Assembly: GCF_020524285.1 (NCBI RefSeq)
Contig: NZ_JAIVKX010000003.1
Coordinates: 186,001 to 250,000 of the forward strand
Origin: Alloyangia pacifica
Lineage (GTDB): Bacteria > Pseudomonadota > Alphaproteobacteria > Rhodobacterales > Rhodobacteraceae
Length of the DNA: 64,000 nt
Reading direction: 5' to 3'
Shown here one piece after another: positions 51,034 to 64,000 of this stretch (positions are counted from its first letter, which is position 1; every line of letters starts with the position of its first letter). Made by a program: the position numbers and the translations under genes. A model generated the notes under the pieces. It was not told the DNA's origin, searched no databases, and was given only the letters and a program-made list of their open reading frames with translations.

Positions 51034-51342
51034 CTATCGGATGAGGGCCGGCAGCCCCTCGGCTGCCAGGCAGGTCAGGGTCTCGGGCTTCGAGACGATA
51101 TCGGAAACAACCTCGACGGTGCTGGCGGTGGGCCCGCCGATGCTGTCGGCGGCCAGCGCGTAGATTTGCGTGGACGAGGCATTGTCGATCACGCAGTCCA
51201 GCGCCGGTTCCACCGGCACGCCGGGATACCTGTCGGCGACGACGCGGGCGACCGTGGATTTCGCGGCTTGCCGCGCAATCTGGTCCTGCGTCTGGGCCGA
51301 ACAGGCCGCCAGCACGAGTACGAGGCCGAGGGCTGCCCGCAT
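51034..51342 (-). CDS. Small lipoprotein between sdhA and sdhB
   Basis: This 102-residue protein starts with a lipoprotein signal ([15 protein letters not shown]; lipobox LAAC, lipidated Cys at residue 14). The mature part has two further cysteines (LDCVID and TLTCLA) that could pair. It starts on the last base of the sdhA stop codon (one-base overlap) and ends 9 bp before sdhB, so it must be produced with complex II. I recognise no domain; involvement in assembling or stabilising succinate dehydrogenase is an inference from position. Confidence 0.85.
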   Translation of the reverse strand: MRAALGLVLVLAACSAQTQDQIARQAAKSTVARVVADRYPGVPVEPALDCVIDNASSTQIYALAADSIGGPTASTVEVVSDIVSKPETLTCLAAEGLPALIR

Positions 51343-53555: not shown

Positions 53556-53945
53556 TTACACCACGATGATCGTGAGAAGCGTCAGGACGGTGGCGCCGAT
53601 GAACATGCCCCAGCCGAGCTTTTCCGAAATCTCGACCTCGATCAGATGTCCGAGATCCCAGATCACGTGACGCAGCCGGCCCAGCATGTGGTACCAGATC
53701 GCCCAGGTCGCGAGCAGCATGAGCAGGTCGCCGATGAAGCTGGTCAGGATGCCATCGACCACCGCGAAGGCCTCGGCCGAACTCGCCGCAGCGATCAGCC
53801 AGCAGACCACGAGGAACGCGAAACCGAAGGTCGCGATTCCGGTGATCCGGACCATGATGGAGGAGATCGACGTCATCTGGGGGCGGTAGTACTGCCCGAT
53901 CATGAAGGGTGAAAGCGGGCGACTGCCCCGGTTCACATCGGCCAT
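53556..53945 (-). CDS. sdhC: Succinate dehydrogenase cytochrome b556 subunit
   Basis: This 129-residue membrane subunit begins RPLSPFMIGQYYRPQMTSISSIMVRITGI, the family signature, with three helices and the heme-binding histidine in WYHMLGRLRHVIWDLGH. It is the first gene of the operon. Its upstream region (53946-54256) carries paired GTGATCAC elements and a direct repeat, described separately. Confidence 0.96.
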   Translation of the reverse strand: MADVNRGSRPLSPFMIGQYYRPQMTSISSIMVRITGIATFGFAFLVVCWLIAAASSAEAFAVVDGILTSFIGDLLMLLATWAIWYHMLGRLRHVIWDLGHLIEVEISEKLGWGMFIGATVLTLLTIIVV

Positions 53946-54066
53946 GGCTTGTCCTTTTCGGTTCCCTTGTGGCCGCGTTCTAGCGCCTCTTGCCCTGCGC
54001 TGTCACGCGGCTGCACGCGGCCTGAGCACGATTTTTCCATCCAATTCCAAAAAATGATCGAAATTC

Positions 54067-54161
54067 GTGATCACACTTCAAAAGGCGTGATCACATTCTC
54101 TGCGCTAACGGAGATTTCCGCAGAGTCGCCTTATTCCTAAGCGTTTAACTCAGATTTCCGC
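54067..54161 (-). promoter_or_regulatory. sdh operon control region: twin GTGATCAC, TGCGCTAACGGA, and a 40-bp-spaced direct repeat
   Basis: GTGATCAC occurs at 54067-54074 and 54087-54094 (20-bp step). TGCGCTAACGGA lies at 54101-54112. TAAC-NN-AGATTTCCGC occurs at 54106-54121 and again at 54146-54161, exactly 40 bp apart. A weak promoter (TTGAAG on the minus strand, 16-17 bp spacing) would place the sdhC-proximal GTGATCAC between -35 and -10. The twin palindrome and the 12-mer recur in front of sucC. Confidence 0.7.
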
Positions 54162-62860: not shown

Positions 62861-62921
62861 TGCGCTAACGGAATCCGACCCGCAGCAATTTTGTGATCAC
62901 GCTTTTTCAGCGCGTGATCAC
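62861..62921 (+). promoter_or_regulatory. sucC control region: TGCGCTAACGGA and twin GTGATCAC
   Basis: TGCGCTAACGGA (62861-62872) is followed by GTGATCAC at 62893-62900 and 62914-62921 (21-bp step), ending 112 bp before the sucC ATG. The twin palindrome with almost the same spacing and the same 12-mer lie in front of sdhC. A shared regulator of TCA cycle genes is therefore likely. Confidence 0.72.
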
Positions 62922-63033
62922 AACGGGCAGAAAATCTCGCAAATCTTCGCCGAAAGCCAAAAATCCCTTCGCGCGGCGGGATCGGGGGGCGTATACCCAC
63001 CCCGAAATCGCAGCAAGACGGGAAGAGTCTTCC

Positions 63034-64000
63034 ATGAACATCCATGAATATCAGGCGAAAGCGCTCCTGCGCGAATACGGCTGCCCGGTTTCGGACGGCC
63101 GCGTCGTGCTCAGCGCCAACGAAGCCAAGTCCGCTGCCGGCGAGCTCGACGGCCCGCTCTGGGTCGTCAAGGCGCAGATCCACGCAGGTGGTCGCGGCAA
63201 GGGCACGTTCAAGGAAGCCGAAGCTGGCGAGAAGGGCGGCGTCCGTCTGGCCAAGTCGGTGGAAGAGGCGGCTGAGGAAGCCAAGAAGATGCTCGGCAAG
63301 ACGCTGGTGACCCACCAGACCGGCCCCGCCGGCAAGCAGGTCAACCGCATCTACATCGAGGACGGCTCGGACATCGAGCGCGAACTCTACCTCGCCCTGC
63401 TGGTCGACCGCGTGACCTCGCGCGTGTCCTTCGTCTGCTCCACCGAGGGCGGCATGGACATCGAGGAAGTCGCAGCCTCGACCCCCGAGAAGATCCTGTC
63501 GTTCTCCGTCGACCCGGCCACCGGCTACCAGCCGTTCCACGGCCGCCGCGTCGCCTTCGCCCTCGGCCTCGAAGGCCCGGCGATGAAGCAGTGCGTGAAG
63601 CTGATGGGTCAGCTCTACAAGGCCTTCATCGAGAAGGACATGGAGATGCTGGAGATCAACCCGCTGATCCTCATGCCCGGCGGCAACCTCAAGGTGCTCG
63701 ACGCGAAGCTCGGCTTCGACGGCAACGCCATGTACCGCCAGCCCGACATCGCCAACCTGCGCGACGAGACCGAGGAAGACGCCAAGGAACTCGAAGCGTC
63801 GAAGTACGACCTCAACTACATCGCGCTCGATGGTGAGATCGGCTGCATGGTGAACGGCGCGGGCCTCGCCATGGCGACCATGGACATCATCAAGCTCTAC
63901 GGCGCAGAGCCGGCCAACTTCCTCGACGTGGGTGGCGGCGCGACCAAGGAGAAGGTGACCGAGGCGTTCAAGATCATCACCTCGGACGACAACGTCAAAG
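63034..64000 (+). CDS. sucC: Succinate-CoA ligase (ADP-forming) beta subunit, 3' end outside the window
   Basis: The visible 322 codons begin [19 protein letters not shown] and contain the ATP-grasp features [48 protein letters not shown] and [23 protein letters not shown] with the start of the CoA-ligase domain ([15 protein letters not shown]). The enzyme makes ATP from succinyl-CoA in the TCA cycle. GGAAGAG precedes the ATG. sucD is expected next but lies beyond the window. The upstream twin GTGATCAC element is shared with sdhC. Confidence 0.97.

Follow-up and report, generated by a model that had tools for sequence, protein, structure and literature searches.

Twin palindromes upstream of sdhC and sucC in Alloyangia pacifica: probable sites of the GntR-type activator AkgR beside a probable CceR/GapR half-site

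Paired palindromes at two TCA operons

Is there a single regulator that ties together the operons beginning with sdhC and sucC in Alloyangia pacifica, and is it already known from other members of the Rhodobacteraceae? The question is raised by a stretch of 64,000 nucleotides (the window; C3:186001-250000 of the genome) in which the palindrome GTGATCAC occurs as a spaced pair, here called the twin, in front of each of the two genes, with a copy of one 12-mer close to each twin. The features concerned are as follows.

53556..53945, minus strand: sdhC, which opens the sdh operon and encodes the cytochrome b556 subunit of succinate dehydrogenase (NCBIfam TIGR02970)
53977..53982, minus strand: TAGAAC, -10-like box for sdhC, following the -35-like box at 18 bp (conservation in the genus judged by eye)
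54001..54006, minus strand: GTGACA, -35-like box for sdhC, lying 60 bp from the twin on its downstream side
54067..54074, no strand: GTGATCAC palindrome, sdhC-proximal half of the twin, probable AkgR site (twin in 20/20 genus and 266/295 family genomes)
54087..54094, no strand: GTGATCAC palindrome, sdhC-distal (step 20 bp, spacer 12; spacer 12 at sdhC in 20/20 genus genomes)
54101..54112, plus strand: 12-mer TGCGCTAACGGA, which reads TCCGTTAGCGCA towards sdhC; core GTTAGCG, probable CceR/GapR half-site (core in 19/20 genus genomes)
62861..62872, plus strand: the 12-mer again, here upstream of the twin of sucC; a probable half-site of CceR/GapR (core in 18/20 genus genomes)
62893..62900, no strand: GTGATCAC palindrome, sucC-distal (from the window count and the genome pair scan)
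62914..62921, no strand: GTGATCAC palindrome, sucC-proximal (step 21 bp, spacer 13; sucC ATG 112 bp further on)
62992..62997, plus strand: TATACC, -10-like box before sucC (both the box and its conservation in the genus judged by eye)
63034..63999, plus strand: sucC, succinate-CoA ligase beta subunit, 5' part, running off the window (NCBIfam NF001913, TIGR01016)

The identities of sdhC, sdhA, sdhB, mdh and sucC were confirmed with NCBIfam models. Within the sdh operon, sdhA and sdhB have between them a reading frame of 102 residues whose start is lipoprotein-like (51034-51342 of the window, minus strand).

GTGATCAC was found six times in the window, at 1230, 2187, 54067, 54087, 62893 and 62914, against a mean of 0.83 in 100 shuffles of the window, none of which reached six. 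These positions and coordinates bear out what an initial annotation of the window had read, namely steps of 20 bp at sdhC and 21 bp at sucC, with lone copies at 1230 and 2187. With a pair defined as exact GTGATCAC twice, 9-16 bp lying between the palindromes, the scan of the whole genome (5,725,348 bases, 49 contigs) returned exact pairs at the two TCA loci only, 54067/54087 upstream of sdhC and 62893/62914 upstream of sucC, and no match to the reversed control pattern.

The arrangement was conserved far beyond this species. In the genus survey each of the 20 genomes had exactly two twins, with a spacer of 12 at sdhC and of 13 at sucC in all 20, and in the family survey (295 genomes, 294 genera) the twin was present in 266 genomes, mostly in exactly two copies, the reversed control being zero in every row. 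We read the sequence around 72 twin places, comprising 70 from among the family matches listed and the two in the window, and found sdhC behind 32, sucC behind 36 and neither behind four. The four remaining places consisted of one at fumC (L027) and one at sucA (L031), both genes being named by eye from their translations, and two inside reading frames (L026 and L060, the spacer-10 pairs of genome G044), which were taken as chance. TCA genes thus follow 70 of the 72 places, in agreement with the targets of the AkgR regulon (sdh, sucCD and 2-oxoglutarate dehydrogenase). At the 68 sdhC and sucC places the spacer was 13 in 64 and 12 in four, the median distance from the end of the twin to the ATG was 111 bp for sucC and 129.5 bp for sdhC, and the flanks leaned to TTT before and AAA after the twin. 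The initial annotation would have been contradicted by a pair at many unrelated promoters or by its lack of conservation upstream of sdhC and sucC in relatives; we found neither.

Two of the places read differ from the rest in the gene that follows. A third exact twin lies upstream of a fumC-like gene at L027:1501-1529 (G042:C16:228293-228321), which suggests that fumarase joins the regulon in some genera. At L031:1501-1529 (G177:C4:93432-93460), a twin lies between mdh and a sucA-like gene, and sucC is away from its usual place, so that the site here keeps its position while the first gene behind it differs.

The regulator of the twin

None of the 57 GntR-domain matches of the genome falls within the window (150 of 164 candidates scored). 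A GntR-type regulator came into question from the literature: the available part of one report places GTGATCAC among the binding sites of the activator AkgR (PMC6365646), and the accessible text of another predicts the GntR protein RSP_0981 for the sdh, sucCD and 2-oxoglutarate dehydrogenase genes (PMC4344238). A second route to the regulator was provided by the GntR matches listed in ten small genomes. One of these genomes, G090, has the pair and only three GntR matches, one of which adjoins lpd at the end of the suc operon and carries a lone GTGATCAC 15 bp before its ATG. When the protein encoded by this gene was searched in the 295 family genomes, 273 gave a match at E <= 1e-30, with identities of about 60-69% among the matches listed. 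The ortholog in the genome of the window is on another contig (match G000:C12:194907-195530, reading frame from 194883), is 62% identical to the G090 protein and has the Pfam domains GntR and FCD; the gene preceding it encodes a YgjP-like metallopeptidase, as in G090. We infer that this ortholog is AkgR, and hence the regulator of the twin is very probably a protein already published. The initial annotation had proposed a single regulator dedicated to TCA genes whose own gene lies beyond the window, which is therefore right but not new: the conservation of the pair, its restriction in this genome to the two TCA operons and its TCA targets support it well, and the part that went with it, the shared 12-mer, probably belongs to a second regulator, as described below.

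Other searches for a GntR gene were less productive. No GntR gene was found beside sdh at E <= 1e-4 in 20 regions of 11 kb around or downstream of sdhC, searched with 59 GntR queries. The presence of GTGATCAC near the GntR genes of the genome itself was discarded as a lead, as it was seen at five of 30 loci (of the 57 matches) and the copy at L100 sits inside coding sequence. Two GntR genes near contig ends, G000:C16:2524-2712 and G000:C23:1180-1368 (L095 and L096), have equal domain scores and frame lengths and probably represent a duplicated or repeated segment.

Ortholog and pair occurred together in most genomes. At E <= 1e-30, the 295 genomes comprised 263 with both, 10 with the ortholog only, three with the pair only and 19 with neither, that is, 13 discordant genomes (Fisher p 7e-20, kinship ignored); two of the 22 genomes without an ortholog at this threshold (G256 and G264) were assigned by elimination. 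At E <= 1e-60, the corresponding numbers were 259, 6, 7 and 23. The three genomes with a pair and no ortholog detected at E <= 1e-30 are 77, 93 and 77% complete. Among the six genomes with a strong ortholog and no exact pair, two have a twin with one mismatch at sucC and four have no true sucC start assembled. The true sucC locus was present in 23 of the 29 pair-less genomes and could be scored in 21. Four of these 21 have an ortholog at 1e-30. In G040 and G291 the one-mismatch twin lies 108 and 95 bp before the sucC ATG, respectively; G195 and G281, whose orthologs are weaker (1e-58 in G281), have no twin at sucC; and in the 17 scorable genomes without an ortholog the region upstream of sucC is three to seven mismatches away from the twin, the nearest including G017, with a three-mismatch twin-like stretch 130 bp before sucC. 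In G157 (L246; 80% complete, no AkgR detected), a twin-like stretch with four mismatches was observed at the usual 109 bp from the sucC ATG and looks like a twin remnant.

On a SucC tree of 54 rows (four loci gave no SucC), which is poorly resolved, we counted eight changes for AkgR and nine for the pair, with G195 and G054 (weak matches) scored as ortholog-free and G040 and G291 (one mismatch) scored as twin-bearing. Only one independent pair falls on well-supported branches, so that repeated joint loss of regulator and site is neither proved nor disproved by this tree, whose resolution is too low for it to serve as a correction of the Fisher value for relatedness.

The palindrome also precedes the regulator gene itself. 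In 79 of 80 orthologs (the best 80 of 553, among which R. sphaeroides is not found), GTGATCAC lies within 120 bp upstream of the start, mostly 8-30 bp before it, the distance being taken from the position homologous to the first residue of the query. A further ortholog set had GTGATCAC upstream of the match in 23 of 30 cases. No copy was found upstream of akgR in the species of the window (L225 near 3384, G000:C12) or in Alloyangia mangrovi (L336), whose AkgR is 100% identical to that of the window species.

The twin might instead be bound by some other regulator that merely occurs together with AkgR, either another GntR protein or a CRP/FNR-like protein reading GTGA/TCAC. The GTGA/TCAC half-sites do resemble those of CRP-type proteins, and the protein found here is a presumed ortholog of AkgR of R. 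sphaeroides. However, CRP sites have six bases between their half-sites and GTGATCAC has none; the ortholog was singled out among just three GntR matches of a genome by where it lies and by the GTGATCAC that it carries, it tracks the pair across genera, and the same 8-mer stands before its own gene in nearly all of the best orthologs. Since, in addition, the available text of PMC6365646 names GTGATCAC as a motif among AkgR sites, we regard another regulator as very unlikely and continue with AkgR as the protein that probably occupies the twin.

The 12-mer, the promoters and helical phase

The exact 12-mer TGCGCTAACGGA occurs in the whole genome at 54101 and 62861 only. Because the two genes lie on opposite strands, sdhC on the minus and sucC on the plus, its orientation relative to sdhC is the reverse of that relative to sucC, as first described, which means little if the site to which it belongs is palindromic. 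The weight that the initial annotation had laid on the exact 12-mer did not hold: it is present in one of the 20 genus genomes at each locus, and as a shared element it was rejected. Only the 7-base core, GTTAGCG, is conserved: on one strand or the other it accompanies the sdhC twin in 19 of 20 genus genomes and the sucC twin in 18 of 20, and at each locus it mostly keeps a single position. That the match between the two loci runs to 12 bases in this species is probably due to chance.

GTTAGCG is one half of GTTAGCGCTAAC, which is the probable operator of the LacI-type regulator CceR/GapR. In the genome, GTTAGCGCTAAC has five matches with no more than one mismatch, including one each before zwf, gap and pyk (reversed control, two). 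At both window sites the GTTAGCG half is intact and the AAC half of the operator is degenerate. In other genera, palindromes with no more than three mismatches were present near 12 of 32 sdhC twins (shuffles, 3.2; coding control, 2/32) and near five of 36 sucC twins (shuffles, 1.5; coding control, 0/36). According to the accessible portions of earlier reports, the LacI protein RSP_1663 is predicted with GTT-N6-8-AAC for sdh, zwf and others (PMC4344238), the same protein (CceR) has been called GapR, with a putative site before gapB in Roseobacter (PMC4052901), and CceR responds to 6-phosphogluconate (PMC4419725). For Paracoccus denitrificans, the TCA genes are placed outside the CceR regulon in the available part of a further report (PMC11323563), a result that fits a half-site present in a minority of genomes and at the same time counts against a general role of CceR.

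The nearness of the 12-mer to the twin, no more than 24 bp at both loci, and the retention of its core in nearly all genus genomes could also mean that it is a second recognition element of the twin's own regulator. That reading is unlikely in our judgement, given that GTTAGCGCTAAC (at no more than one mismatch) also stands before zwf, gap and pyk, where no twin exists, and that, unlike the twin, the exact half-site was infrequent and found on either side of the twin in the wider sample of 394 genomes, taken almost throughout as one genome per genus. There, CGCTAAC at 5-35 bp behind a twin was matched 44 times, in 42 genomes, and GTTAGCG at the same range 42 times, in 41 genomes, the reversed control being zero for both. 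The 12-mer thus probably lies outside the site of the twin's regulator, and its core probably belongs to a second regulator, the LacI-type CceR/GapR.

The distances in these matches were not evenly spread. Between the centre of the palindrome implied by the half-site and the centre of the nearer GTGATCAC we found 11-13 bp in 18 matches, 19-24 bp in 35, 28-34 bp in 31 and 40-41 bp in two, and distances of 14-18, 25-27 and 35-39 bp in none of the 86 matches. The vector strength was 0.68 at a period of 10, the largest among the periods listed being 0.69, at 9.5, and none of 20,000 uniform draws attained the best value for periods of 10-11 (relatedness ignored). A similar pattern was seen in the sdhC promoter. 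GTGAC occurred 35-95 bp downstream of the twin at 27 of 32 sdhC loci (200 shuffles: mean 1.9, largest 6), at 57-60 bp in 23 of the 27 and at 48, 69, 78 and 79 bp in the others; the -35 box of sdhC thus moves by about one or two whole turns. The distance from the twin to the ATG had no clear helical phase. These spacings suggest that the sites of the second regulator and the promoter tend to keep to the same face of the helix as the twin.

Another source of a 10-bp pattern, in place of selection for helical phase, would be descent from a few common promoter layouts, and the null used here, which draws uniform gaps and ignores relatedness, is open to it; at the sdhC promoter, moreover, most positions form one unshifted class (the 23 of 27 at 57-60 bp). 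We nevertheless think ancestry an improbable explanation, because the sample holds nearly one genome per genus, several separate distance classes came out with two half-site patterns that have just two palindrome bases in common, and in the four cases where the -35 box lies elsewhere its shift is close to one or two whole turns. A preferred helical phase is accordingly kept in what follows.

Proposed mechanism and known systems

Taking together the computed conservation of the twin, its targets, its co-occurrence with the GntR ortholog, the GTGATCAC upstream of the regulator gene in relatives and the near whole-turn spacing, we are confident that the best explanation is one in which the twins are AkgR activator sites and the 12-mer core is a degenerate CceR site on a preferred helical phase. 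Each palindrome would take up one AkgR dimer, and the two dimers would share a face of the DNA at a distance of two helical turns, possibly with cooperativity. They would stand about 60 bp upstream of the -35 box at sdhC, and at a similar distance by eye at the sucC promoter, and AkgR would in this species, too, activate a promoter whose -35 box (GTGACA) is weak. The 12-mer core may be a degenerate site for a LacI-type protein, presumably CceR (GapR in RegPrecise), whose preferred phase would let both regulators act together. Since CceR is reported to respond to 6-phosphogluconate, such an arrangement would let sugar status tune the respiratory genes through the CceR half-site by the twin. One may go further and picture a composite enhancer, in which a rigid platform formed by an AkgR tetramer, a mobile CceR site and the core promoter share one face, sites are gained, lost or moved only by whole turns, and the sugar-sensing regulator is an interchangeable co-activator of respiratory genes; for this wider model we would put the case for and against about level.

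AkgR, its motif and its predicted targets are already in print. The primary report on AkgR is that of Imam et al. (mBio, 2015). It was outside the literature that we searched, so that the lack of any description of the twin, its whole-turn spacing or the akgR site in the portions of the papers covered by that search carries little weight.

Among known systems, the AkgR (RSP_0981) regulon of Rhodobacter sphaeroides is the closest, sharing the GTGATCAC motif and an activator, as stated in the available part of PMC6365646, and a GntR-family protein with sdh, sucCD and 2-oxoglutarate dehydrogenase as predicted targets, as stated in that of PMC4344238. Beyond the regulon as described there, our data add the strict twin at a step of 20-21 bp, the near whole-turn placement of the promoter and the lone site at akgR, over many genera. 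The CceR/GapR system (RSP_1663, LacI family; central carbon metabolism in the Rhodobacteraceae) is similar in its GTT-N6-8-AAC operator and in having zwf and sdh among its predicted targets (PMC4344238, available text), whereas the TCA operons in the window each have one intact half of the operator and one degenerate half. PS417_07240, from the deoxyribonate cluster of Pseudomonas simiae, is a GntR-type protein 32% identical to AkgR, and its own gene carries GTGATCAC at -47 to -40; in the accessible portion of that report it differs from the present case in having a single site and a different pathway, with no twin reported (PMC6365646). Set beside these systems, the present analysis connects a bare sequence pattern with a named regulator and reveals one arrangement of sites before the genes for succinate dehydrogenase and succinyl-CoA synthetase in most of the family, and the natural variation of spacing near whole turns offers a ready-made test of how a GntR-family activator, with a LacI-family partner, acts on RNA polymerase.
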